A program made the position numbers and the translations under genes. Below are positions 486 through 62,722 of a stretch of DNA of 64,000 nt, in pieces. Each line of letters opens with the position of its first letter. The first letter of the stretch is position 1. Source of the DNA: Amphiura filiformis (Eukaryota; Echinodermata; Ophiuroidea; Amphilepidida; Amphiuridae); contig NC_092629.1 of NCBI RefSeq assembly GCF_039555335.1, positions 3,987,912-4,051,911 of the forward strand, in the 5' to 3' direction. The notes under the pieces were generated by a model that was given only the letters and a program-made list of their open reading frames with translations, had not been told where the DNA came from and did no database searches.

Positions 486-577
486 GTCGTCCTCCGGGTC
501 CAGAACTGGAGAATTGTACGGATAGGGAGTCTTATTCTCTAACAGCAGGGTTAGCTCTTGGCATGGTCATGTTAGGG
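486..577 (+). CDS. ANAPC1: ANAPC1 exon E1 (local numbering)
   Basis: 92 nt between TTTAG and GTGAGT. It encodes the GRPPGPELENC block and a PC repeat (SLTAGLALGMVMLG). The first Gly codon is split with the previous exon; the 3' end is phase 0. Confidence 0.95.
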
Positions 578-3500
578 GTGAGTACTTTAACGTTAAAGAA
601 AATATGAAAAAGGGAAGAGTTAAAAAAGCATTTGATTTTTTGGTATTTTATGACACAAGCTCAACATAATTGAGCTAGGTTTGCTACCCATGGCATATCA
701 GTCCAGACATATTGCTAGAGCTAGAGCTGTGTTTTGACATTTTGTTATTGCTTGTTATAAATATTTTACAAACAGATGTTACAAGAAGTTGCCCATATCA
801 ACTTGTTAGCACCTTAAGACAGCAGAGCTGCCTTTGACTTTTTTAATTACATCTTATATTTACCAAAACAATTATATGAAAGTATGATTTACATCTGTAG
901 GAAGAAGATTACAAAATGCATGGCAGTACACCTATAGGTGCACTGATATCAAAATAGGAAAAAAGCTCTTTCTTTCCTGATATTCACAAGAACTGGTTTG
1001 AGTGAAGTCAAAAGAATTCCCATGCAAGAAATAGTTTAGTTTATATGTAGGATTTCAGAAATGATAAGCTAGACCACAGCTCCCAGGGTAAATTGATGAT
1101 GATCATTATTCAATCATCAAAATTCATCTGGTCTGATTGGATCAGATTGTGTTATTTATTTTTGTACATATTTCCTGCACACACAGCGTGGCAGTGATGC
1201 AGTAGGCTTATCTGATCTCAACATGGCTGATCAATTGTACCATTACATGGCTGGAGGACACAAGAAACAACCTGTAAGTACTACAAATCTAGAATCTGCA
1301 TCTAACGTCATTGTTAATCAAACTATCCACAACCATTGATTGGTTAGTAGTGCTTTAAAAGGAAGACTGATTCATCTGGTGTCTTCATGGGAGAAAAGGA
1401 ATGGCAGAAAATGGTGATAAATTATGGAAGTTTTACAAAGCAACAAAAGTATCCCATTACAAAGACCAAACTTTTGAGATGGTTTGTATGGTTAAAGATG
1501 CAAAATTAACCATAAGGCATTCTGTTTTCAGCAACATTCAGAAACTCAATCATCATTTAATTTGGTTGTTAGGTGACGTCAGACAATACACGCACAAACT
1601 AGTCTAATTGTAGTTTGAAACTAGTCTAATTGTAGTTTAATTCTGTCTCCGATTAGAGTCTTGTAAATGGCAGGGCATAAGAGCATAGGGAAGGAGGTGT
1701 AGATCTTGGGGGCTCATAGTAACAGATCATTGCGGATCAAAGGAAGCCTGTGTGTTCATTATACCCCAGGCCTGTAGTGGCTCTCAGGGGCCCTGGGCAC
1801 ATGTATACTAGGCTCCCTTCTGGTATGTACCTGAACCCTTCTCTTGTCTGAATCCTTTAAATTATATGTAAATATTAATGTTCTCTTCCAGGCCGGTGCT
1901 CACAGAGAGATGTTCAAGTCACCTTGTTATCAGATTAAAGAAGGTGATCAAGTCAACATAGACGTTACATCACCAGGAGCTACACTGGCATTGGGTCTCA
2001 TGTTCTTCAAAACTGGCAACAGGTAAGTAATCATCTAAGAATTGTTTTGATTGGTTATAAAGAGGGCTATACCATGTATTGAGCCAATCAGAGATATGGT
2101 AAGAATAGTTAGTAGGGCTGAAGGAGATTTTAATCCCCTTCAGTTTGTAGTTATAGCTGGATTGACACGTTTCTGGTATAGTAAATAATTATCGCTTTAT
2201 GTGTTAAGATTTAGTTTTGTAAGTTGTTTTACATTGTTTATTTGCAGGGCTGTTGCTCAGTGGTTGACAGCACCGGACACACAATTCTTGCTAGACTTTG
2301 TCAAGCCAGACTTTCTACTTTTACGGGTAAGACATTACATGCAATCACTTGCCATAATTGTGCTACAAAGTTGTATTTGCACTATTCAAGTACTTCCCCC
2401 ACCCTCCTAGTGTGGGGAAATGAAGGAGACCACTGTGTGTATTACATGACCACTGTCCTGTTAATAAGGAAACAGATTTTTATTCCGAAGGATCGTTATT
2501 CCAAAGCATGCGCGTATTTTGCGGGGGGGCTTTGGGGGCGCCAGCCCCCCGGGGTCAAAGTAGGGGGCGGCAAAAACAAAGGGGCGGCAAAGCGAATTAA
2601 CAAAGAAAAAGGCGCAAAAAATTGAAAAAGCATAACAATTTTTGAAAGAAGGTTGCCTTTTTTTTTTTTGCTCTTCACTTTTTTCAAACGACCGTGAAAA
2701 AATTGGGTCAACCTTTAAGGGCTGGGGTATGAGCGTTTGGACAGTATTTATTTTGGGACATTAGAGCACATCAGACATATCGAATTGCATTCTGAATACG
2801 AAGAATGTCATTCTGATATCAAATAATTTTGATTTTTTGAAATTTGCAATTTAATACACATTTTATGGCAAATCATTAAAATTGATATTTTTGATATTTA
2901 ACAGTACTTGAAGTAAACTTTATAAATCTGATGATTTATACTTAAAGTGTATGTAGGTGGGATGAAAAGCCGACGATCATTGAAAATTTTGACCTTTCAG
3001 TATTGAAAATATGGATTTTTTTCCCAAAACACCAAAAAAATTAGGTCTTTTTGGGAAAAAATCCATATCTTCAATATGAAAGGTCAAAATTTTCAATTGA
3101 CCGTCGGCTTTTCCTCCCTGCTACATACACTTTAAGAATATGTCATTAGATTTATATAATTTACTTCGAGGACTGTTATATATCAAAATTTGAAAAATAT
3201 CAAATTTTTATAATTTGTCATAAAATTTGTATTATATTGTGATTTTCAAAAATGAAAATTATTTGATATCAAAAAGACATGCTTCGTATTCAGAATGCAA
3301 TTCGATAGGTCTGAGGTGCTCTCATGGCCCACAAAAAAATACTGTCGAAACGCAATAAACGCTAATTTTAGATCCCTTAAGGAAGGGGCGGCAAAATTGT
3401 TTCTTAGTTCAGCCCCCCGGGGTTGGGGCGGCCACGGTACGCCACTGCAAAGGGTCATTATTCATGAGGGTTCATTACTCTGAAGTGTCATTACCCCAAA

Positions 3501-6500
3501 TTTACAAGGTCTCTCATGCCAAAGGGTCAATACATCGAAGGTTACTCCGAAGGGTCATTGGGAGTAATGACCCTTAGGATTAACAAGCCTTAGTGTTAAT
3601 TTGGAGTAATGACTCTTCGGAATAACAAACCTTTATAATAGCGAACTTACGGAATAAAGGTTCTTCAGAATTACAAGGTGTAATCATTGCATATACTATT
3701 GCAAAACCTCCGGTTTGCAAGGTTGGGAAATTGCCATGATAAAATGTTGATAAAGTTGGGCCGATCAGATCACGCCCGATTGCCAGCTATGTTTGGCTGT
3801 CCTGAAAAAATGCCCTGACCTGCTATCTTCAGCCTTACCCTCACCAAGTCTTGGTCTGATTGAAGTTTCGTCTGCATTATCTCCCAGATTTCGGCAGTTC
3901 ATCGAATTTGTTAAAACTTGCGAATAATATAAAATGATGTCCCTTTCAAGCTTTCATGCAAAAAAAACATGTAAATGTTTCTTGTAAATGTGACTAATTC
4001 GTTATGGATTTACTGACATTTATACAGCATAATACTAGTAGTTTACAATGTTTTTATTTATGATAATCATCATGATCATATATATAATATATTGATTTCA
4101 AATGAAAGATGCTGTTTTTCTCATTAACATATTAAAATTAAGAGTTCTAAATTGGTGTATTTCGGAAGATATCATCCCAAAAATGGTCAAATTAGTCTCA
4201 AACGTTGTATACCACAGTCAAGACTAATACAACAGTTTTTTTATGATTTCTTCGAAAATATACCAATTTGGAATGCCTTATTTCAATATTGAAATTTTGA
4301 TAAGGTTAAGTGGGGGACAAGGCTGTCAATCGGGTCTCCCAGCTTTAAATGGAGGAATAAGTTGGAATAAGATTATAATTTATTATTTGTCTGTTTCTTT
4401 TCTGCAGACTATCAGTCGAGGACTAGTGTTATGGGAGGATGTCAGACCTACAAGTGATTGGATACAAAGCAATGTGCCAGAGGTAGGGTCATTGTTGTTA
4501 TATAGGTGACCCCGGAATGACGTGACAAGCCGTTGACCTCCGTTGACAACAAATCCGATTCAGAAGTCAAATTTGTAGTTTTCTGTGGTTTGTCCCTTTT
4601 CAAATCGGCCAAAATACTACCATTTCTATAACTTCTTGACATGGGGCCTCCAGCCAACAACAAAAATAAAGACTCTCCTCTACATGTTCATGTGTTCAGC
4701 TTCACATAAAATGCAATTTTCGCCAAGTATTTAACCTTTATTTTTCCGAAATCGGCCCAGAAATTTGCTCGATTTGAGGTCAAAACAGAATGTAAACAAA
4801 CTGAGTCAGCTCTGCTACAAGTCTTCAACTAGTCGGTCTGCTCCACGATCTATTGTGGGTTGAAAAGCGTAAGTGTAGCATCATGTAAAATAAGTACCCG
4901 GATGGCTGGGTCACCTATAGGGTCCACAACTTAGAAGTTCCCCCCTGAATACTTTTTAAAATAAATCAAAATTTTTTAAAATATTTGACAAAATGCACAT
5001 CTGTAAAAGGTATGGGTAGCCCTATTTGTTTTACACATATGGACCAAATGATGTTACTATAAGCGCATTTGTGATGCAAAGTATATGAGACATAATCCCT
5101 AAAGATGACGGTGAAAATATAAGACCCCTAGCTTGCTGGAAAAAGTCATGCTATGTTCAGGAGCACTTGAATCAATATTTAATTTAAACGCCATTAAATA
5201 CAAATTAAAATATTATCTTTTTTGAAGTTTGCATTTTTTGATTTAGCGCAATTTAGGATGAATGATATTGTTTTGGCTTTGTACTGTCAAAAAATTCTGA
5301 TCAATACAAAGATTGAAAAAAGCGATATGAATTAAATATGTAGACCCTAATATCATAAGAATAGATTAGACTGAATTTTTTTTTAGACTGAATATATATT
5401 AGCCAGGATAAATAAGACGGGAAATGTTGATTCTCTTTTCTTCTTGCTAAACCTTGTTGCCCCGTGTTTGTATGTATCTGTCTATTTCAGATTGTCAAGA
5501 GGTATGCCTTTGTAAGAAGTTCAGCTCAAGATGAATTGGATGGGGAGATAGACTTCTAAGTAACCCTCATAGGTCTTGAGCTTCCCATGTATAATTGGTG
5601 GTTCTCAACCATGTTTGTATGTATCTGTCTATTTCAGATTGTCAAGAGGTATGCCTTTGTAAGAAGTTCAGCTCAGGATGAATTGGATGGGGAGATAGAC
5701 TTCTAAGTAACCCTCATAGGTCTTGAGCTTCCCATGTATAATTGGTGGTTCTCAACCATGTTTGTATGTATATGTCTATTTCAGATTGTCAAGAGGTATG
5801 CCTTTGTAAGAAGTTCAGCTCAAGATGAATTGGATGGGGAGATAGACTTCCAAATAACCCTAATAGGTCTTGAGCTTCCCATGTATAATTGGTGGTTCTC
5901 AACCATGTTTGTATGTATCTGTCTATTTCAGATTGTCAAGAGGTATGCCTTTGTAAGAAGTTCAGCTCAAGATGAATTGGATGGGAGATAGACTTCCAAA
6001 TAACCCTAATAGGTCTTGAGCTTCCCATGTATAATTGGTGGTTCTCAACCATGTTTGTATGTATATGTCCATTTCAGATTGTCAAGAGGTATGCCTTTGT
6101 AAGAAGTTCAGCTCAAGATGAATTGGATGGGGAGATAGACTTCTAAGTAACCCTCATAGGTCTTGAGCTTCCCATGTATAATTGGTGGTTCTCAACCATG
6201 TTTGTATGTATATGTCTATTTCAGATTGTCAAGAGGTATGCCTTTGTAAGAAGTTCAGCTCAGGATGAATTGGATGGGGAGATAGACTTCTAAGTAACCC
6301 TCATAGGTCTTGAGCTTCCCATGTATAATTGGTGGTTCTCAACCATGTTTGTATGTATATGTCTATTTCAGATTGTCAAGAGGTATGCCTTTGTAAGAAG
6401 TTCAGCTCAAGATGAATTGGATGGGGAGATAGACTTCTAAGTAACCCTCATAGGTCTTGAGCTTCCCATGTATAATTGGTGGTTCTCAACCATGTTTGTA

Positions 6501-9500
6501 TGTATATGTCTATTTCAGATTGTCAAGAGGTATGCCTTTGTAAGAAGTTCAGCTCAAGATGAATTGGATGGGGAGATAGACTTCCAACTAACCCTCATAG
6601 GTCTTGAGCTTCCCATGTATAATTGGTGGTTCTCAACCATGTTTGTATGTATATGTCTATTTCAGATTGTCAAGAGGTATGCCTTTGTAAGAAGTTCAGC
6701 TCAGGATGAATTGGATGGGGAGATAGACTTACAAATAACCCTAATAGGTCTTGAGCTTCCCATGTATAATTGGTGGTTCTCAACCATGTTTGTATGTATA
6801 TGTCTATTTCAGATTGTCAAGAGGTATGCCTTTGTAAGAAGTTCAGCTCAAGATGAATTGGATGGGGAGATAGACTTCTAAGTAACCCTCATAGGTCTTG
6901 AGCTTCCCATGTATAATTGGTGGTTCTCAACCATGTTTGTATGTATCTGTCTATTTCAGATTGTCAAGAGGTATGCCTTTGTAAGAAGTTCAGCTCAGGA
7001 TGAATTGGATGGGGAGATAGACTTCTAAGTAACCCTCATAGGTCTTGAGCTTCCCATGTATAATTGGTGGTTCTCAACCATGTTTGTATGTATATGTCTA
7101 TTTCAGATTGTCAAGAGGTATGCCTTTGTAAGAAGTTCAGCTCAAGATGAATTGGATGGGAGATAGACTTCCAAATAACCCTAATAGGTCTTGAGCTTCC
7201 CATGTATAATTGGTGGTTCTCAACCATGTTTGTATGTATCTGTCTATTTCAGATTGTCAAGAGGTATGCCTTTGTAAGAAGTTCAGCTCAAGATGAATTG
7301 GATGGGGAGATAGACTTCCAAATAACCCTAATAGGTCTTGAGCTTCCCATGTATAATTGGTGGTTCTCAACCATGTTTGTATGTATATGTCTATTTCAGA
7401 TTGTCAAGAGGTATGCCTTTGTAAGAAGTTCAGCTCAAGATGAATTGTATGGGGAGATAGACTTCTAAGTAACCCTCATAGGTCTTGAGCTTCCCATGTA
7501 TAATTGGTGGTTCTCAACCATGTTTGTATGTATATGTCTATTTCAGATTGTCAAGAGGTATGCCTTTGTAAGAAGTTCAGCTCAGGATGAATTGGATGGG
7601 GAGATAGACTTCTAAGTAACCCTCATAGGTCTTGAGCTTCCCATGTATAATTGGTGGTTCTCAACCATGTTTGTATGTATATGTCTATTTCAGATTGTCA
7701 AGAGGTATGCCTTTGTAAGAAGTTCAGCTCAAGATGAATTGGATGGGGAGATAGACTTCCAACTAACCCTCATAGGTCTTGAGCTTCCCATGTATAATTG
7801 GTGGTTCTCAACCATGTTTGTATGTATATGTCTATTTCAGATTGTCAAGAGGTATGCCTTTGTAAGAAGTTCAGCTCAAGATGAATTGGATGGGGAGATA
7901 GACTTCTAAGTAACCCTCATAGGTCTTGAGCTTCCCATGTATAATTGGTGGTTCTCAATGTTTGTATGTATCTGTCTATTTCAGATTGTCAAGAGGTATG
8001 CCTTTGTTAGAAGTTCAGCTCAAGATGAATTGGATGGGGAGATAGACTTCCAAGTAACCCTCATAGGTCTTGAGCTTCCCATGTATAATTGGTGGTTCTC
8101 AACCATGTTTGTATGTATTTGTCTATTTCAGATTGTCAAGAGGTATGCCTTTGTTAGAAGTTCAGCTCAAGATGAATTGGATGGGGAGATAGACTTCTAA
8201 GTAACCCTCATAGGTCTTGAGCTTCCCATGTATAATTGGTGGTTCTCAACCATGTTTGTATGTATTTGTCTATTTCAGATTGTCAAGAGGTATGCCTTTG
8301 TTAGAAGTTCAGCTCAAGATGAATTGGATGGGGAGATAGACTTCCAAGTAACCCTCATAGGTCTTGAGCTTTCCATGTATAATTGGTGGTTCTCAACCAT
8401 GTTTGTATGTATCTGTCTATTTCAGATTGTCAAGAGGTATGCCTTTGTAAGAAGTTCAGCTCAGGATGAATTGGATGGGGAGATAGACTTCTAAGTAACC
8501 CTCATAGGTCTCGAGCTTCCCATGTATAATTGGTGGTTCTCAACCATGTTTGTATGTATCTGTCTATTTCAGATTGTCAAGAGGTATGCCTTTGTAAGAA
8601 GTTCAGCTCAAGATGAATTGGATGGGGAGATAGACTTCCAACTAACCCTCATAGGTCTTGAGCTTCCCATGTATAATTGGTGGTTCTCAACCATGTTTGT
8701 ATGTATCTGTCTATTTCAGATTGTCAAGAGGTATGCCTTTGTAAGAAGTTCAGCTCAAGATGAATTGGATGGGGAGATAGACTTCTAAGTAACCCTCATA
8801 GGTCTTGAGCTTCCCATGTATAATTGGTGGTTCTCAACCATGTTTGTATGTATTTGTCTATTTCAGATTGTCAAGAGGTATGCCTTTGTAAGAAGTTCAG
8901 CTCAAGATGAATTGGATGGGGAGATAGACTTCCAACTAACCCTCATAGGTCTTGAGCTTCCCATGTATAATTGGTGGTTCTCAACCATGTTTGTATGTAT
9001 CTGTCTATTTCAGATTGTCAAGAGGTATGCCTTTGTAAGAAGTTCAGCTCAGGATGAATTGGATGGGGAGATAGACTTCCAAGTAACCCTCATAGGTCTT
9101 GAGCTTCCCATGTATAATTGGTGGTTCTCAACCATGTTTGTATGTATCTGTCTATTTCAGATTGTCAAGAGGTATGCCTTTGTTAGAAGTTCAGCTCAAG
9201 ATGAATTGGATGGGGAGATAGACTTCTAAGTAACCCTCATAGGTCTCGAGCTTCCCATGTATAATTGGTGGTTCTCAACCATGTTTGTATGTATATGTCT
9301 ATTTCAGATTGTCAAGAGGTATGCCTTTGTAAGAAGTTCAGCTCAAGATGAATTGGATGGGGAGATAGACTTCTAAGTAACCCTCATAGGTCTTGAGCTT
9401 CCCATGTATAATTGGTGGTTCTCAACCATGTTTGTATGTATTTGTCTATTTCAGATTGTCAAGAGGTATGCCTTTGTTAGAAGTTCAGCTCAAGATGAAT

Positions 9501-12500
9501 TGGATGGGGAGATAGACTTCTAAGTAACCCTCGTAGGTCTTGAGCTTCCCATGTATAATTGGTGGTTCTCAACCATGTTTGTATGTATCTGTCTATTTCA
9601 GATTGTCAAGAGGTATGCCTTTGTAAGAAGTTCAGCTCAAGATGAATTGGATGGGGAGATAGACTTCTAAGTAACCCTCATAGGTCTTGAGCTTCCCATG
9701 TATAATTGGTGGTTCTCAACCATGTTTGTATGTATCTGTCTATTTCAGATTGTCAAGAGGTATGCCTTTGTAAGAAGTTCAGCTCAAGATGAATTGGATG
9801 GGGAGATAGACTTCTAAGTAACCCTCATAGGTCTTGAGCTTTCCATGTATAATTGGTGGTTCTCAACCATGTTTGTATGTATCTGTCTATTTCAGATTGT
9901 CAAGAGGTATGCCTTTGTAAGAAGTTCAGCTCAGGATGAATTGGATGGGGAGATAGACTTCTAAGTAACCCTCATAGGTCTTGAGCTTCCCATGTATAAT
10001 TGGTGGTTCTCAACCATGTTTGTATGTATTTGTCTATTTCAGATTGTCAAGAGGTATGCCTTTGTTAGAAGTTCAGCTCAAGATGAATTGGATGGGGAGA
10101 TAGACTTCCAAGTAACCCTCATAGGTCTTGAGCTTTCCATGTATAATTGGTGGTTCTCAACCATGTTTGTATGTATCTGTCTATTTCAGATTGTCAAGAG
10201 GTATGCCTTTGTAAGAAGTTCAGCTCAGGATGAATTGGATGGGGAGATAGACTTCTAAGTAACCCTCATAGGTCTTGAGCTTCCCATGTATAATTGGTGG
10301 TTCTCAACCATGTTTGTATGTATTTGTCTATTTCAGATTGTCAAGAGGTATGCCTTTGTAAGAAGTTCAGCTCAGGATGAATTGGATGGGGAGATAGACT
10401 TCTAAGTAACCCTCATAGGTCTTGAGCTTCCCATGTATAATTGGTGGTTCTCAACCATGTTTGTATGTATCTGTCTATTTCAGATTGTCAAGAGGTATGC
10501 CTTTGTTAGAAGTTCAGCTCAGGATGAATTGGATGGGGAGATAGACTTCTAAGTAACCCTCATAGGTCTTGAGCTTCCCATGTATGATTGGTGGTTCTCA
10601 ACCATGTTTGTATGTATCTGTCTATTTCAGATTGTGAAGAGGTATGCCTTTGTAAGAAGTTCAGCTCAGGATGAATTGGATGGGGAGATAGACTTCTAAG
10701 TAACCCTCATAGGTCTTGAGCTTCCCATGTATAATTGGTGGTTCTCAACCATGTTTGTATGTATATGTCTATTTCAGATTGTCAAGAGGTATGCCTTTGT
10801 AAGAAGTTCAGCTCAAGATGAATTGGATGGGGAGATAGACTTCTAAGTAACCCTCATAGGTCTTGAGCTTCCCATGTATAATTGGTGGTTCTCAACCATG
10901 TTTGTATGTATCTGTCTATTTCAGATTGTCAAGAGGTATGCCTTTGTTAGAAGTTCAGCTCAAGATGAATTGGATGGGGAGATAGACTTCTAAGTAACCC
11001 TCGTAGGTCTTGAGCTTCACATGTATAATTGGTGGTTCTCAACCATGTTTGTATGTATCTGTTTCTTTCAGATTGTCAAGAGGTATGCCTTTGTAAGAAG
11101 TTCAGCTCAAGATGAATTGGATGGGGAGATAGACTTCCAAATAACCCTCAGGTCTTGAGCTTCACATATATAATTGGTGGTTCTCAACCATGTTTGTATG
11201 TATCTGTTTCTTTCAGATTGTCAAGAGGTATGCCTTTGTAAGAAGTTCAGCTCAAGATGAATTGGATGGGGAGATAGACTTCCAAACAATGAGGTGAGAA
11301 TAAGGGAAAGAGAAAAAAAACCCTTAAGAGCTATAGTGTGCTAGGCATGGGTTACAACAAGACAATTAGCAGTAAGTTCCTTGTCCAGGGGAATTTCAAG
11401 TTAACTCAATTTTTTCCATGAGAGCATACTAAACCACCACCAGAATTTGAACCTGCAACCTCTTGCACCATAATAATAATAATAATAATAATATTAAATG
11501 AAACAGCATTTATCCAGGCTTTGTGGATGGTGGCATCCCTCAAAGCGTGCCATGGGTTGATATGCTGCCAAGCCCCTAAAGGTATTGCAAGTTGACCTTA
11601 ATGCTGAGTATGACAGACAACAGGCCCGGCCTGATCACCTGCTCTTTATGAAAAGTCCAACAACTTTTACATGTCCAGATATGGCTCATCTGGTACACAG
11701 TACCACCATTTTATGCGACTCTCTGAACCACAGCACGCCATGTACCCACTATGGTGTCAAATGCCTTAAGGTCGGATCGTCGGCTATCGTGTCATGCACC
11801 GAATCCCCTCAAAATGTCCTTAATTGTGCCCTATCCTGTAATAAATATCTTCCCCAAATTAGAGATCGGGGCATCATTTAAATCATTCTGAATCAAAAAA
11901 CGAAATGTTAATTTTCACTAACTTAGCCGTCTCATTGATATTGCGCAATCACAATAGTATCGTGTATGCATGAATAGAATAATAACATTGCGTAACGTAG
12001 CTGTAGTTTCATTGAACATTTTTGTCAAATTTTTCTGGGAATTGTTTTTAATGCTATGAGTTGTACAGTAAGAATATATGAAATTATCAGTGCTTTCTAG
12101 TGAGCGACACAATGTACAGCGACTCTTGTCTTGTCATGTCACGCAGCTCAGCTGTGAGCATTCCCTATACTCACACACACACACACTGCTTGTATAAAAT
12201 ATGGAGCTATTTGGCTCCCAATTTCACTAGTTTACGTGCGCACAATTAACTTACCAGTCAATTTGGTAAACATCCAATACCTCAAAGTCATAAATGAAGT
12301 GGAGATATGCATGTTTCTATAACTGAACCATTATTATTTGGTTTTACATGTCTGGTAATTTCATGATTTCGCCAGACCTGTCCCATTGAACGCTGTACAA
12401 ACTACAACTAAAGGAGCCCATGCAGCGCCGGGCATCGCCTAAAATTTTTTTTCCAATTGCGATAACACGCATCATGAGAGTTCACGAAAGAAAGGCGGCA

Positions 12501-15500
12501 GCGAGCAAAATTACGGCAATCTTAAAAGACTCCCTGAAGACTCCCTGTTTTAGCGGAAAAAAGTTTTACAGAACTTTGAGGGCGTTATCTGAATAATGTT
12601 TTCCCACCTAGTGAAAGAATTAGACTTTGGTCAGAGACTTTTAAAGTAGCAGAGATTATTTGTTATAAATAGATCTTTCTTTATGAATGAAATTTGCCAC
12701 CTGCTACATAATATTTGGACACTTATATACATAAAAGTGTTTTCTGTGAAAAAGCCTAAAATAGGGAATTTCAGAATTATTGTCACAAAAATTGACTTAA
12801 TGTAGCCTTTTTTTTTAATTGAAAGTTAAACATAACAATATTACCTAAATTCTCTCGCCAGCTTTTGTTACTTTTCAGCTTCTTTAAGCAGAAATAAATT
12901 TTTAATGACATCAATATTTTCACAGACTAGAAACATGTGCTATTACGTAATTAATGGACTTAGGCGAAAAAGCTGGCGAGAGATTTTAGATAATATTTAT
13001 TTACAATTTTTCCAATAGTGAAAGTTGGAATCAGAGTTGAAGTTTTTGCTAGCAATAATTATTAGTCGTAAAATTAAGGTTAAACTAATTAATTGATATT
13101 CATTAATTGATGCAAATTAGCAGCTCAAATATTTTGTGGTTTTAAGCATTGGGACGTGTAGTTTACTCATAAAAATTAAGAGGTGTGCACCAGGAGGCAG
13201 AATATTTTTTATAATTTTTTCCTTGCCAACGTGTGGGAACCGAGTTTCCTACCTTAATGATTAAGCTAACTTGACTGCATAAAAGGAAGAGAAGAGGATA
13301 GGTAGACATACAAATAGAAAGATGGTGGGTGAGTAGGAGAGAAGAAGGACAGAGAGACATGGACAGTGTGAGAGAGTGAGAGACAGAAATGGGATGGGAG
13401 GGAGTGAGACGGAGAGAGACGTATGAGAGAGTGAAAGACAGACAGAGAGAGGCCATAAGAAAGGGATGGGGACAGGTATGAGGGGAGGAGACAGACATAC
13501 ATAGAGAGACATAGGGAAGGACACAGGGAGAGAAATGTGAGAGACGGTGACAGCCAGCGAGAGAGCTGCGAGAAAAGGACGGGAGAAGTGAGACAAAAAA
13601 CATGAGATCATCACATGGTCTACTGTCATTTATTTTCATGATATTGTTGTTATATTGTTTCAGTCAAGCTGAGTGCAATATCCTTGCTGGTGCATGTCTG
13701 GTGCTGGGATTACGATTTGCAGGGTCTGCAAATAACAGCGCATTTGAAACTTTGGTAAGAATCATAGGAGAAATAGGCGAGATAAGATTTCTTGTAATGC
13801 ATGGAAGTAATGTAGTCTGACTTCCATCCAAATTTGGTCCATGTCTATCTGACAGTGGCACTTTCTATCAGTTATAGAGGCCTTGCATGTGACGTATCAT
13901 CCCGTAAATATGGCGGACTACTCAAATGCATTCAACAAAAGCATGATTGTAATCTACCGTGACAGTTTGTCTCACACACATAACCCTGCACTACGATCAA
14001 ATAGGTTGATGACAACATTTGATTGAATGGACTGCACTCCGCCATACGGTGAAGGACACCGGCTCAAATCCTTTGTTTGGAGCCAATCGTTCATGCAGGG
14101 CCTCTATTGCTTTAAATGTGTTATTGTAAAATTGTGAATACTGATTATGATGAATATTGATTATTGATCAGGTATATTGATAGATATTGATTATTGGTCA
14201 TTTATTTTTTTTTTACATTATAGCTTCACTATGCGAATAGGTGTTATAGTCTATCAACTCAACCAGCAGCTGACCTTGTGGGCAAGTCAACCATAGAAAC
14301 CTGTCTGAATGCTGTCATGCTGTCTCTAGCACTGGTAAGTGTGTGTGTGTGCTGGGGTGGGGGTTATATGTGGGTGGGTGTGTGTACTCAACCAGCGGCA
14401 GACCTTGTGGGCAAGTCAACCATAGAAACCTGTCTGAATGCTGTCATGCTGTCTCTAGCACTCGTAAGTGGGTATGTGTGCATGGGGTGGGGGTTATATG
14501 TGGGTGGGTGTGTGTACTCAACTTGCAGCTGATCTTGTGGGCAAGTCAACCATAGAAACCTGTCTGAATGCTGTCATGCTGTCTCTAGCACTCGTAAGTG
14601 GGTATGTGTGCATGGGGTGGGGGTTATATGTGGGTGGGTGTGTGTACTCAACTTGCAGCTGATCTTGTGGGCAAGTCAACCATAGAAACCTGTAAATATG
14701 ATATTAGACCATATAAAAAAAGGTCCTCGGTTATGGGTGTAATACCTGTCCTCGGTTTCTTGTGAAATATTAAACCGGTGTGAAAAAAGTCCACAGAATG
14801 TCAGGATTTAAAACCCTTTCAATTTATAATTCTGTAAAATTTGTCATTAATTCATGATAAGGCAGAAAAAGACTGCCCGTAAATTGAGCACCACAATAGG
14901 CTATTATTGCAAGTTTCACATTATTTAGTCAACTTCATATTTAACCAATAGAGATTTTACTTTATAGTTTAAAAAAAAAATTTTAAACAGTTTTTCTGAC
15001 CAACAAACCATATGAGGACAAATAAAGACTTTTTTTCTTGGCCTAATGTTTGCGTGCAATCACCGCCTATAACAAGTTACTATTTATTTGTACATAGGTG
15101 ATGGCAGGAACTGGCAACCTCAAGGTGCTGCGCCTCACCAGACAACTGCACTGCCGTATCTCAGTTGATGTTCCATATGGCAGCCATATGGCTATTCACA
15201 TGGCCATTGGGCTGCTATTCCTGGGAGGAGGGCGCTATACATTGAGTACATCGGGACCAGCGATTGCAGCGTTGTTGTGTAGTATCTATCCAAGATTTCC
15301 AGAGAACAGCAGTGATAACAGGTGAGATGAAGAGAGGTGGACAGAGAGGTAGAGTGAACAGTGTGTAATATCAAATAGATTAAAGCCAGATTGTAACATT
15401 TGCTGAGATGGATGCCCTCAATATTTCTCAAAATTTTGTTTTTACCTGATTGTTATGTACTTTAGTAAACTTATAACTTACCCTCCAAAATTAAAAACTG

Positions 15501-18500
15501 TAGTTTTATCAAAATCAGAGATTTTTAATAAAACATCTGAACAAGACTTTTAATTAATACGATGCAAATATTAGTCGAATGCACACACGATGTTCATAAC
15601 ACAGTACGTACATGTCGTGCAAGACAATCATAACATCAAAAGAACCAACCCGAGTCATGTTGGAAGGAGTGGCTGGCATGTGCTCTAGCAATTTTCTTTG
15701 TATTGCCTCATCTGTCTGGGTCAAAGTTAAAATGGGACATATCTGACAGTGAAAACTAACATTTTATGATAGAAAAACATTTCTATTTCTTACGGAAATG
15801 TTACAATATGGTTTTAATTGAATGAAACAATTCGTCGATTGATCATGGGTGCTGCCAGTAGACATGTTAGAAGACTACCAAGATTGTTGGTTGTCAGTGT
15901 TGTATTGTTTGGTTGGTTAATTTAACTAACTTTCTTTAATTCTGTTCTTTAAACCACTAGGTACCATTTGCAAGCTCTTCGTCATCTTTATGTGCTTGCA
16001 GCTGAACCACGTCTCATATTACCAAAAGATGTAGACTCTTGCAAGCCATGCTATGCACCTATTGAAATTGTCTTCAAGGTAGGTATAATCATCTTTTGGC
16101 ATGTGAAATGTTTGAATTTCTGTCGATTTCTATGGTTTTATTGGCATTGTCTGCCTTTTAAAATTCCATGTGATAGGGACATATTTTTAATGTATATTTA
16201 TGCTTATATATAAGCCGAGTTATATTCTTATATGTTTGTTTCTCATTTCATCATTTCAGGGATCCAGTTTTTATGATGAAAAGACAGTACAGATGCTTGC
16301 TCCATGCATTATACCAGAGTTGAAACATTTGAAAAAGGTAAGTGAAGGGATTAATCAATTGGGATATGACAGCTAAGAAAATAATTGTGTAAAGATATGT
16401 AGGCTGCCATTGACCCTGCCACTGCGTATCCTGAACACTACTGTGATTTTTACCGGGTTTATCGCATACAATGCTTTGTGTTCAAGCAATATAATTGCAT
16501 GTAAAGTTGTTGCGTGCAGCGTGCTGCATCCGCAGTTTGACATTTACAAGCCCACTATGAGTGTATTTTTTTCAAATACTGGGCAGCTATTTTTTCTAAT
16601 TTTTTAGCGTATCTGTGAACTTAAATTTATTGAATACATCAAATCAACCATACATTCCTGCGATCCAGGACAAGAATACAAGAAAATACTCTTTCAGTCC
16701 CAAGAATTGCTCTAAATTTACACATATTGATACGTAATATAACAAGACTTGGCGATAGTCTATTCAGATATCAATAGATTAATGACACATAGATTGAAAT
16801 GTTCCATGCCTGTGCTCTGCATGCCTGTGAGCGTACTTTAATTCAGCTTATGCCGGTACAGCATTCACACCTGGCGACATTGCTCATCTGACCGTACACA
16901 GGAGCGCCCGACTTGTCAGTGTTTACGCGCAAACTTTATTTTGTGTACGCTAACGCTATTTGCTTTATTTGTGAGTTCACTAACACACCCCCTTATCATT
17001 GACCCCCATAAGCAACATGCTTACCTTAAGCTCAAGGTGATTGACCCCGGAATGGTTTTAGGACAAAGGTAAAGATTTATAATTGGGGTGGAAATTGATG
17101 AAATGATTTGATTTGAATCACCAGCCTTTCATCTCTTGATCAATGCGTCTGCTAGTATTATGCTGGTGTAATGATATTATTTATTTCACATCTCACACTT
17201 TCTAGATCACAGTGATGGGTCCTCGTTATCTACAAATCATCTTGGATGTAGAGAAGGATGCGGAGACACTGAAGTCCATCTTTGAGGCAGGAGGCATGGT
17301 ATATGTGAAACAGAGAGCTGGCCACTTGTCGTATGAAGAAGACCCTAAGGTATGAGTTTTATTCATCCGGTGGTGCCGCAATGTAGAGGTAATCATTACC
17401 ACTGCATATTGTTGATTTTGCTGCATGACCATTTGTACATGATGCAGTCTGTGTGAAGAGCATATTTGCCCGCTTGGCAACAAATAAGGTGGTAACATGA
17501 CGACGATCAAGTGCGATCTCAATATGCTGAATTTTGACAGTATAAATATTGTGTTAAAATATGTGCATCAGGATGATGTGCACTTGATAGCATTTTGTGT
17601 GTAAAATATGCACTTCAATACCACAATGCACATTTCATTACCACAGCATAGTTTTTACAATATTTTGTCGTTGGGCAGGAAAAACCTCCTATGTGTCATT
17701 GGCACGTGAACATGTTTTAAACATGTTCAGGGGCCACAAACACACAGGAGGATCTGGTTTGACCTGCTGTAATTGCAGTGAAAGCAGCATCGACGGTCGA
17801 TCCAAAGATCGAACAAAATTAATTCTGGTGCCTTATTTATATTACTTTGTATCTTCCCTAGGGTTACCACAGTCATTTGGCCCATAGCTTCACTCAAGAT
17901 GGGTTTGGTTACCATGCTAATGGCATCAACTCAAAAGCCATCAGGTCGTTCACCTCTGACCCCAAAATATTGACCTTTGCGGAGTATTTTTGTCGCGAGC
18001 AGCCTGGAATTGCAGAGGAGGTAAGAGAGATTTTATTTAAAAAAAATGTGATGTAAAAAAAAAATGAAATTCCTGCAAGGTGCTTGAAATTTAGGAAAAT
18101 AAGAAATAAATAAAATAAGAAAATAAATTAAGAAAGAAGGCAGCCTATACTTCACCGTGGCAGGCTGGTAAGACAATGATAGACACAATTAATATATGCA
18201 AGGATCGGAAATAAGTGATTCAAGCCCATGAAATTATGATTGAATGAATTTATGAAACTTGGGTAAAACCGACATATATAATAAATTGAGAGAGCAGATA
18301 AAAATCGGGACTCAGCGGGGTTTGATCCCCAGACCTCACGATTATGAGTTATACCATTGCACAGTTCACAGTTGATAAAATTTAAGACACATTTTTTTCC
18401 TCAACATCCCTCTATTTTGTATCATTTGTTTGTTTGCTTAAATTTCCAGGATGGTTTCAATGTCAACTTAGCATCTTATCTTCATGAGTGTGTGACCAAA

Positions 18501-21500
18501 GAGAAGCCTCATCTTTTGCCAATGCTAGCAGAGATACATCAGGTAGGTGTACATGTCAACTTAGCATCTTATCTTCATGAGTGTGTGACCAAAGAGAAGC
18601 CTCATCTTTTGCCAATGCTAGCAGAGATACATCAGGTAGGTGTACATGTCAACTTAGCATCTTATCTTCATGAGTGTGTGACCAAAGAGAAGCCTCATCT
18701 TTTGCCAATGCTAGCAGAGATACATCAGGTAGGTGTACATGTCAACTTAGCATCTTATCTTCATGAGTGTGTGACCAAAGAGAAGCCTCATCTTTTGCCA
18801 ATGCTAGCAGAGATACATCAGGTAGGTGTACATGTCAAGGGATCTGTGGCTTCGTGTGATACGACCTCAAACCACTGATATTTTTGGATTGCATGAACAA
18901 ACAGGGGATAACTAATAATATGTGATCCATCAAAGCTATTCTTGAAGTCTATTCTTGAACAGTGCTTGTCTTATATCCAGTGACGCATTAAATTTCTGAT
19001 CCACCTCTTTTTGTAATCTGTATTCTTGTACAGTGTGTGTAGTTTAGAATGCAAGTGCTAAATTGGTTTCTGGAAGCTCAGGGTGATCTTGTATGACAAA
19101 ATTGAAGATAGTGTGTTACAAAACACAGCAACACCACACTTATTGGTGAATGATTGTGCGATACGTCATTTTGCATCATGTATGTATACTGCACATGAGT
19201 GCATGTAAAATGGGAACAAGTTCTGTTCTGTGTTTACCTGTTATGTCAGATCAAGCTACTGCTTGTTCGGCTTATATAAGGCAGAAAAAATAAGACTCAT
19301 AACGCTGTGTATTGATATAGAATGGCATACACGCATTTGGGCGTGATGCTAATGCTAGTTGTGTGTTGCGTAATGCATGACTGGTGCACGCTTATGTGAA
19401 TTTACGTGAGCGTGAGTTGGGACTTTATTGATGCGCGCAGTAACAAAAACCGAATAATTTCAGCCTTATATAAACCGAACAAACTTTGGCCTACTATGAC
19501 TTCACACATGCCTGGGGTGCCAGTGTTGATTAAGACATAAAGCTTTAAAATTACATGATTGGTTATTTGGTTTTACTTTTAGGCGATGAAATCTGTGTGT
19601 AGCAATCCAAGTCCGTACCTATTATGGCAAATCAAGCTACTGCTAGCCTACTATGACTTCACACATGCAAGGGTTGCCAGTGGTGACTACAGTAAAGCAT
19701 CACTAGTGAATGCAGAGATGTGTGCTACTGTATCAAGCCAACTAGAATTAACTCTGGAAACATGGCTACAAGGTGAGAGACACTTCTTTTCATATTTTGA
19801 CTTTAATCATTGCACAGTGATAAATTTATTTGTATAGGTGGTTCAGGTTTAGCTCTACCAGAAGAGGATGCACGGTTGATTTTTCATTGCACAGTGTGAT
19901 ACTGGAGTCTTCTCATGTTTAATGCCTGCAAGAGACTTGGTGTGTCAGCACATCCGAGACGGGCTACTTCGTTATTGATAAGATTGGCAGTGTCCGAAAT
20001 AAGCCCTATCGCAGTGCAATTTGAACCCCAAAATTCACCTGTTGTGATACAACTTTAAAAGTGTGGTGCAAAATTGTGATACCACATTATACTGACTTTA
20101 CGTATTGATTGTGTGAGACTGCACTTCAAATTGCTCAACATCAGATGAAATTGCACCACAGCTTTCAAAATGGGGTGCAAAAGTTCACCCCAAGGTAAAA
20201 AAATTAATTTGAAGACTGGCCATCGGAGGTGCTATTTTCCTAACCAGCCCATCCAACAGATACCCTGATATGTTGCCACTATAACTAGTAGTGGCGGACC
20301 GACCGCTGAAATACTAGGATAAGATTGACAAAATGTGTGAAGCTGAATCATCACCCCAGCATTATTGATTGCTATGTAAGATGGAAAAACATAATGTGAA
20401 TAAACTAATTCAAATTCAATTGAATTACTGTAAAACCACTGACTTTTGCTAGCGATTAAATTTCTCCAGAAGCCTTAATTCGGTAAAATATGCGCGAATT
20501 TGACAGTTATACATTGAATTGTAAACATGAATTGCTTGATAAGCGAAATTAAATACCCACGAAAATGGTGGTCATTGGTAATTAGCGAAATTAAGTACTG
20601 GGGAAATTAAATAGCTTTACAGTATATGATATTAATAATAATTTAATGTTAACATAATTTCTTGTGTATCCATTACCATAATCATGTATCTGTGAACATA
20701 TCATCCCTGTCTATGTTTTATCCTTTCTCTTTTCAGACAATGAAGACAAGTTTGTGAGGTATTTAATACATGGCCAGTTGCCAGATTCTAGTTCCAGGTG
20801 TTTACTTTTCTGTTTCCTGTTATTCCATGACATACCATCACATATGGAAATCAACCAAATCCCTCTGATGGGTAAGTCATAGGATTCCTGATTAGTATTG
20901 GGTGATATTATTCAATATGAGGATAGTTCAGTTTCATCAAATGAAGACATTTCAACTTCATATGTGACCAGATGTGGTCCATTCAGCCTAAAGTTGGCAA
21001 TAATGAAACTGAGATATAAGCCTGATTGGGTCACATATGACCATGAGCCCCCACTCAGGCATGAGAATTTTCTCTGTTTAAACAGCGGAATTCATGTTTT
21101 TCTTTTTTGTTGTTTTCTGAGAATTTTGGCAGATTTTACATGGAAAATAAAAAAAGGAATTTGAGTGGCTGAAGAAGACAATTATTTTTCTCATCTATTG
21201 CACCAGAGCTCTGCAATGATTCACCTTACAATATCAGATGTTGTGACTTGATTCAATCATTTAAAACCATGTTAGGGACTTGTTATATATAACATTGTGT
21301 ACACATATAATGGTTATATTTGCATTTATTGTAATCCTTGTAGCCTGATTTGGCAGCATTGTCTTTAATCATTTGGTGTTTATATTGTGATAATGGGGGA
21401 CAGTGGTGCAGAGATCTAAGACTGCATTTTATAGCCGAAGGTAGCCGAAGGTCGTGGGTTCAAATCGTTGCAGCATCCACATTTTGTGCACTTAGGTTCT

Positions 21501-22019
21501 TCACCCCATTGCCTCTCCCCCACCCAGGTGTACAAATGGGTACCGGCTTTATTCAATTGCTATGAAGGAAAATAACGTACCGTGGAGGAGGAAGAGGTGT
21601 TGAGCCCAATCACTTTGAGAGATGGGCAGGCCCAGCCTGTGATTCTCCCCCTTAACCTTATTGTGATTAAAGACGGTGATGTTGGGTCTTTGTTGCCAGA
21701 ATTGGACATAATAATTCTTGAACTATGTATTGCTTGTGGATAAATTATATTTTATGTTTGGTTCTTGTCAAATACCTCAGAATAGTTTTTACCACATTCA
21801 CATATTCAATACCCTGTGAATGTGCTCAATTAACAAAGACCCATTTTCTAGAAACAGTTGCAGTAAATGCTAGTTTGTTGACTTGACATGAAATTATCTA
21901 TTTTATTTTTCCCCACAGGCTGTAGCTCTCTTCCGGAAGTGTGCGATGCCTTACAGAACTTTAATATGCCAGTATCTGGTTTGATGCACATACTCAGTGC
22001 ACTACAGGCAGCAAGGTAG
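486..22019 (+). CDS. ANAPC1: ANAPC1 (APC1), C-terminal third, 17 exons, 5' truncated by window edge
   Basis: Anaphase-promoting complex subunit 1 is the largest scaffold subunit of the APC/C ubiquitin ligase, which marks mitotic cyclins and securin for destruction. The 17 exons have GT-AG boundaries and compatible phases. They total about 1985 nt (about 661 codons), roughly the last third of the vertebrate protein (about 1944 residues). Recognisable blocks, in order, are GRPPGPELENC, SYSLTAGLALGMVMLG, YQIKEGDQVNIDV, LLDFVKPDFLLLR, ILAGACLVLGLRFAGS, LLFLGGGRYTLSTS, LQALRHLYVLAAEPR, MGPRYLQI, FTSDPKILTFAEYFC and LLWQIKLLLAYYD. Several are proteasome/cyclosome (PC) repeats, the Leu/Gly-rich helical hairpins that form the APC1 toroid. 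Human APC1 has clear counterparts in the same order. The protein ends ILSALQAAR-stop. Several exons lie in tandem duplications, annotated separately. The 5' exons lie outside the window. Confidence 0.96.
578..1186. other. ANAPC1 intron
   Basis: Ordinary AT-rich intron from GTGAGT to CACACAG. Nothing else recognised. Confidence 0.7.
1187..1273 (+). CDS. ANAPC1: ANAPC1 exon E2
   Basis: 87 nt, phase 0 to 0, 29 codons. It encodes RGSDAVGLSDLNMADQLYHY and onward, matching the GLSDLN...QLYxYMxGGH block of APC1. Acceptor CACACAG, donor GTAAGT. Confidence 0.95.
1274..1891. other. ANAPC1 intron
   Basis: Intron. It holds one small direct duplication (GTCTAATTGTAGTTT twice, near 1604-1640) and no supported gene. 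Confidence 0.6.
1892..2022 (+). CDS. ANAPC1: ANAPC1 exon E3
   Basis: 131 nt, acceptor TCTTCCAG, donor GTAAGTAA. It encodes KSPCYQIKEGDQVNIDV and the PC repeat GATLALGLMFF. The final Arg codon is split (AG|G). Confidence 0.95.
2248..2326 (+). CDS. ANAPC1: ANAPC1 exon E4
   Basis: 79 nt after TTTGCAG. It encodes AVAQWLTAPDTQFLLDFVKP and onward, matching the APDT-LLDFVKP-FLLLR block. The donor is GTAAGA. Confidence 0.95.
2515..2600. repeat. GC-rich dispersed repeat
   Basis: G/C-rich stretch with GGGGGCGGCAAA motifs. A related GGGGCGGCAAA stretch recurs at about 3385-3445, on the other side of the foldback at 2715-3381, so the foldback may have inserted into one such element. Confidence 0.45.
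2715..3381. mobile_element. Palindromic foldback element, family F1 copy 1
   Basis: The two halves are imperfect inverted copies: GCGTTTGGACAGTAT at 2733 pairs with its inverse near 3339-3353, and TTAAGGG at about 2716 with CCCTTAA at 3374-3380. The centre is about 3035. There is no coding potential, so this is a non-autonomous DNA transposon or foldback. Related copies lie at 55930-56371 and 62229-62600. Confidence 0.75.
3450..3690. repeat. Degenerate GGTCATTACTCCGAA-type short repeats
   Basis: Loose tandem and inverted repeats built on phrases such as TCCGAAGGGTCATT and GGAGTAATGACC. They resemble in style the TTCCGAA-based arrays at 32857-33560. Confidence 0.5.
3691..4407. other. ANAPC1 intron, remainder
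   Basis: AT-rich intron up to the TCTGCAG acceptor. Nothing else recognised. Confidence 0.6.
4408..4482 (+). CDS. ANAPC1: ANAPC1 exon E5
   Basis: 75 nt, phase 0 to 0. It encodes TISRGLVLWEDVRPTSDW and onward to SNVPE, matching the LWDD-x-P-x-SxWVxSNVP region of APC1. Acceptor TTTCTGCAG, donor GTAGGG. Confidence 0.95.
4483..5490. other. ANAPC1 intron upstream of the 147-bp array
   Basis: AT-rich. It includes a dispersed repeat at about 4915-5100 (GTCCACAACTTAGAAGTTCC and onward), which has a diverged direct copy at about 25219-25400 just before the mariner. Confidence 0.6.
5491..11293 (+). repeat. 40-copy tandem array of a 147-bp unit containing an ANAPC1 exon
   Basis: Counting each exon start (ATTGTCAAGAGG after TCTATTTCAG) gives 40 copies from 5491 to 11217. 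Spacing is 147 bp except four intervals of 146, 146, 144 and 145. Each unit holds a pyrimidine-rich acceptor, about 69 nt of exon (IVKRYAFVRSSAQDELDGEI) and about 78 nt of intron-like spacer. Only the last copy continues into ACAATGAG and a strong GTGAGA donor. At the exon/spacer junction, 25 copies read TTCTAAGTAACC (an in-frame TAA), four read TTCCAAGTAACC (copies 18, 20, 25, 32), six are CAAATAACC type and four CAACTAACC. Copies 4 and 12 share the same 1-nt deletion (GATGGGAGATAG), which implies multi-unit block duplication. Confidence 0.97.
11217..11293 (+). CDS. ANAPC1: ANAPC1 exon E6 (40th and only complete copy)
   Basis: 77 nt: 25 codons plus AG. Acceptor GTTTCTTTCAG, donor GTGAGA. It follows SNVPE and precedes the SQAECNILAGAC exon, as in APC1. 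It is chosen as the functional copy because it alone has the full 3' end in the phase (2) needed by E7. The 39 upstream copies stop eight nucleotides earlier. Confidence 0.85.
11345..11640 (-). mobile_element. SINE/retroposon remnants, minus strand
   Basis: On the minus strand, GGTTGCAGGTTCAAATTC resembles a tRNA B box and is followed by a CTGGACAAGGAACTT phrase typical of SINE bodies. An (ATT)n tract at about 11470-11494 marks a tail. The AAGCGCTTT-like sequence beyond it resembles LINE/SINE 3' ends. Family not identified. Confidence 0.4.
11641..13267. other. ANAPC1 intron, with a small hairpin element
   Basis: AT-rich. It has a short (CA)n run near 12172-12185. An inverted pair around CTCTCGCCAGCTTTT (12838-12870) and AAAAGCTGGCGAGAG (12967-12999) marks a small hairpin or MITE of about 160 bp. 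No gene seen. Confidence 0.55.
13268..13590. repeat. Purine-rich (GA/GACA) low-complexity tract
   Basis: About 320 bp almost entirely purine on the plus strand (GAGAGAGAC, GACAGACAGAGAG). It lies just upstream of the E7 acceptor. Open frames on the minus strand here are Ser/Leu-rich artefacts of the tract. Confidence 0.85.
13664..13754 (+). CDS. ANAPC1: ANAPC1 exon E7
   Basis: 91 nt after TTGTTTCAG. It encodes SQAECNILAGACLVLGLRFA and onward, the well-conserved AGACLxLGxRFAGS PC repeat. Donor GTAAGA. Confidence 0.95.
13755..14223. other. ANAPC1 intron
   Basis: Nothing recognised beyond the splice signals. Confidence 0.6.
14224..14334 (+). CDS. ANAPC1: ANAPC1 exon E8
   Basis: 111 nt, phase 0 to 0. 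It encodes LHYANRCYSL and onward through GKSTIETCLNAVMLSLAL, matching the LETCLSVVLLSLAM segment of APC1. Acceptor ACATTATAG, donor GTAAGT. It is the first member of a tandem duplication. Confidence 0.93.
14256..14692 (+). repeat. Four-copy tandem duplication of the E8 3' half plus donor (about 130 bp)
   Basis: The segment GACCTTGTGGGCAAGTCAAC starts at 14272, 14401, 14531 and 14661 (the last two begin GATCTTG), a period of 129-130 bp. Copies 2 and 3 keep the exon 3' part and a GTAAGTGGGT donor. Copy 4 is cut after AACCATAGAAACCTGT. The spacer is a GT-rich, GTGGGTGGGTG-type sequence. Confidence 0.95.
14693..15097. other. ANAPC1 intron
   Basis: AT-rich; nothing recognised. Confidence 0.6.
15098..15321 (+). 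CDS. ANAPC1: ANAPC1 exon E9
   Basis: 224 nt. It encodes VMAGTGNLKVLRL, then GLLFLGGGRYTLSTS and AALLCSIYPRFP, among the most conserved PC-repeat segments of APC1. The terminal Arg codon is split AG|G before GTGAGA. Confidence 0.97.
15322..15960. other. ANAPC1 intron
   Basis: No gene or repeat recognised. Confidence 0.6.
15961..16078 (+). CDS. ANAPC1: ANAPC1 exon E10
   Basis: 118 nt. It encodes YHLQALRHLYVLAAEPRLIL and onward to IEIVFK. Near-identical to the vertebrate APC1 block. Acceptor CCACTAG, donor GTAGGT. Confidence 0.97.
16260..16337 (+). CDS. ANAPC1: ANAPC1 exon E11
   Basis: 78 nt, phase 0 to 0. It encodes GSSFYDEKTVQMLAPCIIPE and onward, aligning with the APTLLPEL region. Acceptor TCATTTCAG, donor GTAAGT. 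Confidence 0.93.
16338..17205. other. ANAPC1 intron
   Basis: No supported gene. Possible remnant repeats between 16800 and 17000 but no clear ends. Confidence 0.5.
17206..17349 (+). CDS. ANAPC1: ANAPC1 exon E12
   Basis: 144 nt, phase 0 to 0. It encodes ITVMGPRYLQIILDVEKDAE, then GGMVYVKQRAGHLSYEEDPK (the KxRAGxLSYxEDP motif). Donor GTATGA. Confidence 0.96.
17350..17861. other. ANAPC1 intron
   Basis: Nothing recognised. A short stretch at 17797-17833 resembles 172-208. Confidence 0.5.
17862..18020 (+). CDS. ANAPC1: ANAPC1 exon E13
   Basis: 159 nt, phase 0 to 0. It encodes GYHSHLAHSF and onward, then FTSDPKILTFAEYFC, the conserved FTSDP-LLSFAEYFC motif. Acceptor CTTCCCTAG, donor GTAAGA. Confidence 0.96.
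18021..18449. other. ANAPC1 intron
   Basis: A-rich (AAATAAG) low-complexity stretch near 18040-18140, otherwise nothing recognised. Confidence 0.5.
18450..18542 (+). CDS. ANAPC1: ANAPC1 exon E14 (shortest form)
   Basis: 93 nt, phase 0 to 0. It encodes DGFNVNLASYLHECVTKEKP and onward to AEIHQ, matching LFSSVLYECVTQETPEMLP of APC1. Acceptor AATTTCCAG at 18441-18449. The donor GTAGGT at 18543 is the first of four equivalent donors. Confidence 0.9.
18459..18837 (+). repeat. Four-copy 93-bp tandem duplication of E14 with its donor
   Basis: GTCAACTTAGC begins at 18462, 18555, 18648 and 18741, an exact 93-bp period. Copies are virtually identical. Each contains the exon body and CATCAG|GTAGGTGT, but only the first has the upstream acceptor. 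Because 93 is a multiple of three and there are no stops, donors at 18543, 18636, 18729 and 18822 would lengthen the exon by 0, 31, 62 or 93 codons in frame. Confidence 0.97.
19235..19530 (+). repeat. Duplicated fragment of E15 in the upstream intron, split by a MITE
   Basis: 19235-19263 resembles E15 around ATCAAGCTACTGCT, and 19489-19530 resembles the directly following exon segment (CCTACTATGACTTCACACATG). Together they form a diverged copy of the centre of E15, about 350 bp upstream. The two parts are separated by the insertion at 19264-19488. Confidence 0.8.
19264..19488. mobile_element. MITE of about 225 bp inside the duplicated exon fragment
   Basis: Terminal inverted repeats: TGTTCGGCTTATATAAGGC at the left, inverse of GCCTTATATAAACCGAACA at the right. 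There is no coding capacity. It cleanly interrupts the pseudo-exon copy. Confidence 0.75.
19583..19772 (+). CDS. ANAPC1: ANAPC1 exon E15
   Basis: 190 nt. It encodes AMKSVCSNPSPYLLWQIKLL and onward to LELTLETWLQ, matching ELWQIKLVLEFF and LDQWLQ of APC1. Acceptor TACTTTTAG, donor GTGAGA, 3' phase 1. Confidence 0.95.
19773..20736. other. ANAPC1 intron with one MITE
   Basis: Holds the MITE at 20426-20624. The rest shows no gene or clear repeat. Confidence 0.6.
20426..20624. mobile_element. MITE, about 199 bp
   Basis: Ends TACTGTAAAACC and AGCTTTACAGTA are inverted, with inner GATTAAATTTC and GAAATTAAAT also inverted. Typical of small non-autonomous DNA elements. Confidence 0.6.
20737..20871 (+). 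CDS. ANAPC1: ANAPC1 exon E16
   Basis: 135 nt. It encodes DNEDKFVRYLIHGQLPDSSS and onward, LFCFLLFHDIPSHMEI, matching the YLSGQPLEESQ and CFLVYHSVP segments of APC1. Acceptor CTTTTCAG, donor GTAAGTC. Confidence 0.95.
20872..21397. other. Last ANAPC1 intron, 5' part
   Basis: No gene. At about 21055-21075 it has CTCAGGCATGAGAATTTTC, shared with the MITE end at 28062. Confidence 0.5.
21398..21670 (+). mobile_element. tRNA-derived SINE
   Basis: The head has an A-box-like ACAGTGGTGCAGAGATC and a B-box-like GTGGGTTCAAATC, spaced as in a tRNA. The body has CACCCAGGTGTACAAATGGG and GAGATGGGCAGGCCCAGCC, typical of invertebrate SINEs. Family not named. Confidence 0.65.
21919..22019 (+). CDS. ANAPC1: ANAPC1 exon E17, terminal coding exon
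   Basis: 101 nt after CCCCACAG. It encodes GCSSLPEVCDALQNFNMPVS and ends LSALQAAR with TAG at 22017-22019. The FKxLxMPVxxLLRL-type C-terminus of APC1 aligns. The exon end and stop codon lie in a downstream tandem duplication. Poly(A) signal uncertain: ATTAAA near 22854 and AATAAA near 23432 are candidates. Confidence 0.93.
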
Positions 22020-62600: not shown

Positions 62601-62722
62601 AAGGCTGGCGGGTCAACATCATTAATTAATCTCGTACACTGGTATGTTATATGTTGTTTGTACTGTTTACCCTGCCTGCTCATAATATCCATAAGTACCA
62701 GAGTCCTGTTTATCAGCAATAG

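Follow-up and report, generated by a model that had tools for sequence, protein, structure and literature searches.

We analysed a 64,000-nucleotide stretch of contig NC_092629.1 (the window; positions 3,987,912 to 4,051,911 of the forward strand), which carries on its plus strand the C-terminal part of ANAPC1 (486..22019) and, inside that gene, a tandem array of about 40 units built on the edge of one exon (A1), together with three further exon-edge arrays (A2 to A4). The gene was laid out in 17 exons from GT-AG edges, translations and alignment to human APC1: exons 1-6 at 486-577, 1187-1273, 1892-2022, 2248-2326, 4408-4482 and 11217-11293; exons 7-12 at 13664-13754, 14224-14334, 15098-15321, 15961-16078, 16260-16337 and 17206-17349; and exons 13-17 at 17862-18020, 18450-18542, 19583-19772, 20737-20871 and 21919-22019. 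Translations from the gene matched human APC1 in PDB. The 17 joined exons gave a reading of 660 amino acids, open until a final TAG, whose residues 1-653 aligned to human APC1 1279-1932 (E = 1.4e-208). For exon 17 another frame (AVALFRKC...) was rejected in favour of the one that continues from exon 16 (GCSSLPEVCDALQNF...), which aligns to human APC1. G+C content of the window was 0.31-0.40 per 2 kb, and that of third codon positions in the ANAPC1 reading was 0.43; the genomes of lancelets have a somewhat higher G+C content than this. A Pfam scan of one frame of positions 1-14999, with stops entered as X, returned no APC1 family (Seipin scored 18.3 bits, below the 25-bit cut-off). Searches for relatives in viral contigs gave, for a 114-amino-acid APC1 piece, 10 pattern-matching stretches of which none was confirmed and, for a 23-base pattern from the array, 0 matches.

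Array A1 was delimited with Tandem Repeats Finder at 5465-11282 on the plus strand (period 147, 39.6 copies, 97% matches, score 10971) and was then split at its acceptors and compared unit by unit. Each 147-bp unit comprises the end of intron 5 (about 25 bp), a 3' splice site, the first ~69 nt of exon 6 and a spacer of about 51 bp, which has no further copy outside the array in the window at E 0.05. Forty acceptors (TTTCAG^ATTGT[C/G]AAGAGG, caret at the splice site) run from 5491 to 11217, spaced by 147 in 35 of 39 intervals and by 146, 146, 144 and 145 in the rest. The exon-like part of the copies matches exon 11217-11293 over 69-73 of 77 nt. The intact exon 6 is copy 40 (11217..11293; IVKRYAFVRSSAQDELDGEIDFQTM; acceptor TGTTTCTTTCAG^ATT; donor ATGAG^GTGAGA) and comes after all the extra copies; its upstream partner is exon 5 (4408..4482; donor CCAGAG^GTAGGG). 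Exon 6 taken from copy 40 fills its slot in the human APC1 alignment with no other copy needed, and this stretch is, by eye, among the less conserved parts of that alignment. Copies 1-38 (decoy acceptors, 5491..11071) have 11-12 pyrimidines in 17 positions, and copies 39 (starting at 11072) and 40 a slightly richer 13 of 17.

The units differ in an ordered way. The 39 full units fall into 27 distinct sequences, with 23 of 147 columns variable (gap columns counted) and a mean pairwise difference of 3.83 per unit; one 1-nt deletion is common to copies 4 and 12. The similarity between units up to 10 places apart exceeded that in each of 5000 shuffles of their order, and units 1-7 and 10-16 differed from each other by 0.86 per unit, where the lowest of 200 order shuffles gave 1.29. 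Eight units, none of them outside 18-38, carry the variant GTT at column 24. Unit 39, which adjoins the real exon, lies furthest from the consensus with 8 differences, followed by units 4 and 9 with 6 and unit 38 with 5; unit 1 has none. The order looks as if blocks had been duplicated and exchanged with the exon-end copy kept apart, and its structure counts against assembly stutter. An earlier note on this DNA, made from the letters alone, had named the gene as ANAPC1, placed a 40-copy array at 5491-11293 whose unit holds a complete 3' splice site and most of one exon, and described it as an evolving minisatellite with variant classes and a 1-nt deletion common to two copies. The 17-exon alignment, the unit split and the ordered variation uphold all of this, with the array proper starting slightly earlier, at 5465.

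The note had treated A1 as a lone unusual array. A1 is exceptional in size, but the same gene holds three more, all on the plus strand. The unit of A2 (14257..14693; 130-bp x 3.4, 96% matches) runs from the 3' part of exon 8 through the donor into the start of intron 8. In A3 (18460..18838; 93-bp x 4.1, 100%) it consists of the 3' part of exon 14, the donor CAG^GTAGGT and 10 nt beyond, and in A4 (21951..22328; 105-bp x 3.7, 88%) it takes in the 3' part of the last coding exon, the stop codon and 3' flank. Units of A1, A2 and A3 therefore span an exon-intron edge, and those of A4 span exon, stop codon and 3' flank with no splice site. The intact exon stands last in A1 and first in A2 (exon 8, 14224-14334), A3 and A4, so that each array has a complete exon at one end and a normal mRNA, with the 660-amino-acid reading, is possible. 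A3 is flanked by a 7-bp direct repeat, ATGTCAA, found in the exon at 18460 and again after the last unit, as expected for duplication between short direct repeats. Intron 14 also contains decayed partial copies of exon 15 at 19464-19543 and, weaker, at 19235-19263 (plus strand; scores 37.2 and 23.0, against a 95% level of 19.5 and a maximum of 26.2 in 200 mononucleotide shuffles).

The enrichment of local copies at exons was assessed by counting plus-strand partial copies that start within 3 kb, for the 17 exons (exon 17 entered as 21919-21984, its end being later set at 22019) and for 110-bp intron tiles across 600-21900, tiles overlapping exons or A1-A3 copies being excluded. Such copies were found for 5 of 17 exons and 1 of 107 tiles (Fisher's exact test, p = 1.5e-4) or, counted conservatively, for 4 of 17 exons and 2 of 108 tiles (p = 0.003). 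The two matching tiles were 19170-19279, which is itself an exon 15 copy and was dropped for the count of 107, and 13500-13609, which matches 13399-13470 and lies in purine-rich sequence. Once the arrays are collapsed, coding sequence makes up 13% of the gene, and four randomly placed units of the sizes of A1-A4 would all cross one coding-exon edge with a chance of 0.0019 and all touch an exon with a chance of 0.0037; a rough bound of ~0.01 applies to four of five arrays at exon edges if the purine-rich repeat is counted as a fifth array. The exon pattern had been seen before testing, and these p-values are guides.

Splice-site strength was scored with matrices built from the gene's own 16 acceptors and 16 donors, so the scores are rough. 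Copies 39 and 40 share the best acceptor score of the 40 (6.46), with copies 1-38 at 2.81-5.65. The exon 6 donor scores 11.53 (10.69 leave-one-out), and no GT within the 39 A1 units exceeds 5.98. When exon 5 was joined to each of acceptors 1-39 and the sequence was retained up to the exon 6 donor, which is the assumption of this count in place of any use of weak donors inside units, a stop followed after 57-360 nt in 39 of 39 cases. Of the 39 units, 25 have an in-frame TAA where the exon part ends, and 2 units are frame-shifted. Because only copy 40 combines its acceptor with a good donor, and because retention from any other leads to a stop, exon definition should favour copy 40, and wrong products should be lost. 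The earlier note held that the spliceosome must choose the 40th copy or tolerate others; the sequence sides with the first, through a joint-best acceptor and by far the best donor of the array, with the splicing itself predicted from these scores.

Exon 14 differs in this respect. Its array carries four identical donors of 11.88 each (11.06 leave-one-out for the first), and each is in frame, predicting proteins of 660, 691, 722 or 753 amino acids. The segment 18450-18821, that is, exon 14 with its four donors, forms a single open frame containing four near-identical 31-amino-acid repeats. In A2 the second donor (5.72) is in frame and the third is out of frame.

Arrays of exon-intron boundaries have been described in amphioxus as "mirages" at Adh3, the globins BflGb6 and BflGb9, PGBD5 and TnC (PMC3087553, PMC3902484; these two papers, and the two cited further on, are drawn on in excerpt). 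As excerpted, PMC3087553 places the duplication in BflGb9 at the 3' exon edge, so that either edge can be hit, and gives RT-PCR suggesting that mirage genes splice normally. It further describes interior mirage units as homogenised and boundary units as not, the BflGb6 boundary units D6 and D3 being the last-numbered, and cites somatic instability at Adh3 from other authors. The excerpt of PMC3902484 gives PGBD5 with 2 or 7 units of 60 bp and 3 or 6 units of 108 bp, and names TnC. The arrays in ANAPC1 resemble these mirages, so far as the excerpts go, in having exon-intron-edge units at either edge, a retained intact exon, a homogenised interior and a separate boundary unit, and BflGb6, with a unit of 150-160 bp, has the layout of A1 (3' end of the intron plus 5' part of the exon). 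They differ in that the mirages have 2-7 units where a number is given (none for Adh3 and TnC), whereas A1 has about 40, and in that three further arrays lie here in one gene, one of them at a stop-codon edge. The earlier note, which called near-identical exon arrays of this size in a conserved gene unusual, had missed this published class. Exon copies left out of the transcript of their gene are also known from the exon 4 duplications of earthworm metallothionein (PMC12783039, in the excerpt), which unlike the present case comprise two copies, one of them inverted, and no minisatellite.

On this evidence we consider it likely that A1 and its smaller siblings are mirage-type minisatellites, tolerated passively since it is the intact copy that splicing uses; A1 itself is probably a very large example, and the gene, which has four exon-edge arrays in all, seems prone to them. 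A passive minisatellite was the outcome that the earlier note had named as refuting its proposal, and it is the likeliest one as judged from the DNA. Under this reading a tandem duplication would begin with a unit that crosses one exon edge and would leave one complete exon at the end of the array, the last if the unit carries a 3' splice site and the first if it carries a donor or stop codon. With a complete exon left, the mRNA could stay normal and the duplication could be tolerated by selection. From two copies on, unequal exchange and conversion would enlarge the array and homogenise its interior, and the copy beside the real exon would stay apart. Fidelity at exon 6 would come from exon definition, a good donor standing behind the acceptor only at copy 40, from the best pyrimidine tract in copies 39-40, and from premature stops after use of an upstream acceptor with retention, for which nonsense-mediated decay is expected.

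Several observations weigh against this reading. Copies 1-38 lie only 0.8-3.7 bits under the real acceptor, and 25 of these 38 poorer copies outscore 5 of the 16 genuine acceptors (which reach -2.82 to 2.95 leave-one-out); likewise the genuine exon 2 donor (3.45) scores below GAG^GTATGC (5.77), which is present in every A1 unit. Four-unit blocks of A1 gave a best match of 0.75, within the range of the shuffles (lowest 0.25), and the exclusion of end copies from homogenisation is visible at the exon end only, since at the other end unit 1 does not depart from the consensus. The exon part of the units varies at 6 of 66 sites and the remainder at 17 of 81 (p = 0.067), and of the 5 exon-part changes that create no stop, 3 are silent where 20% is expected (p = 0.056); these hint, not significantly, that A1 copies are under constraint or are re-seeded by the real exon. 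A4 crosses no splice site, so tolerance by splicing alone fails to explain the exon bias. Mirages were described from lancelets, and the host here was not identified as one; no mirage-type array outside lancelets was found among the matches listed by searches of the open-licence literature, none of which used the name ANAPC1. Finally, what is shown here comes from a single DNA sequence: the anatomy of the arrays, the ordered units, the bias towards exons, the ranking of splice sites and the stops. From these we infer how the gene is spliced, that wrong mRNA decays, that arrays grow by exchange and that their length is polymorphic.

Dscam-type mutually exclusive arrays hold many copies in one intron, each a complete, divergent exon with both splice sites. 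A1 resembles them in its many exon copies within one intron, and its copies could by analogy form a functional array of alternative exons, spliced in for APC1 variants or setting the level of APC1 through unproductive splicing. All 40 acceptors are intact AG sites, the weak shortage of changes in the exon part points the same way, and the four identical strong donors at exon 14, one in each A3 copy, would each give an in-frame protein. A1 units, however, are near-identical and lack a good donor of their own (best GT 5.98 versus 10.69-11.53 for the real one), and so do not carry both splice sites. Nor would they supply different peptides: the exon parts are identical or silent except in the two frame-shifted units and in units 9 and 14, which alone alter an amino acid by substitution before the TAA point. 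With in-frame stops in most units and retention leading to a stop from every one of the 39 acceptors, we regard this function as improbable.

Slightly less probable still is that the arrays are intermediates of intron gain, with exon-edge copies being recruited as new exons or introns under a tandem duplication model. AG or GT signals are duplicated along with the units, and such a model has been proposed for mirages (PMC3087553, in the excerpt) and reported for a potato RdRp gene (PMC4974935, likewise), where tandem copies also carry splice signals. The potato gene, so far as excerpted, duplicates an intron-exon structure. Here, nothing points to any array copy serving as an exon, and alignment of the 17-exon model with human APC1 shows no additional exon-sized segment. 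Least probable is an assembly artefact that inflated or invented the copy number: PMC3902484 (in the excerpt) gives one lancelet gene in two versions with 2 versus 7 and 3 versus 6 units, and A3 copies are 100% identical, but A1 has 27 distinct units in 39, block structure, left and right classes and a shared deletion, and one gene holds arrays of differing divergence (100%, 97%, 96% and 88% matches) beside decayed copies.

Returning to the reading as passively tolerated mirage-type arrays, what is new here is the size of about 40 units, the presence of several arrays in one essential gene, the array at a stop-codon edge and the four identical in-frame donors of exon 14. Four arrays of differing divergence, with the decayed copies of a fifth exon, form a natural series for testing how one site is chosen among forty near-identical acceptors, and the same series may test whether exon-edge arrays feed intron gain. 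The exon bias, in turn, is a testable claim on where tandem duplications arise or survive. We tentatively raise the further idea, which is rather unlikely on present evidence, that a process in this genome favours DNA duplication at exon edges (acceptor, donor and stop-codon), with arrays being seeded, growing to tens of units and decaying. If true, and outside lancelets, this would be a mutational habit of a new kind, acting across the genome and constantly supplying new introns and in-frame repeats in proteins.

Other features of the window lie downstream of ANAPC1. At 42189-51862 a 21-bp satellite (GGTATCATATCACTCAATATC) forms an array of 9.7 kb (~473 copies) with strong GC skew, and short-repeat clusters around TTCGGAATAGAGAACC, in both orientations, lie at 32862-33550. 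On the minus strand, 34214-34357 and 34777-34919 form a duplicated coding exon, EGF-like by eye, with some flanking intron (86.8% identity over 144 bp), and 25755-26674 contains broken reading frames that by eye resemble a mariner-type transposase. A tRNA-Ala (TGC) gene or tRNA-derived element is present at 62721-62795.

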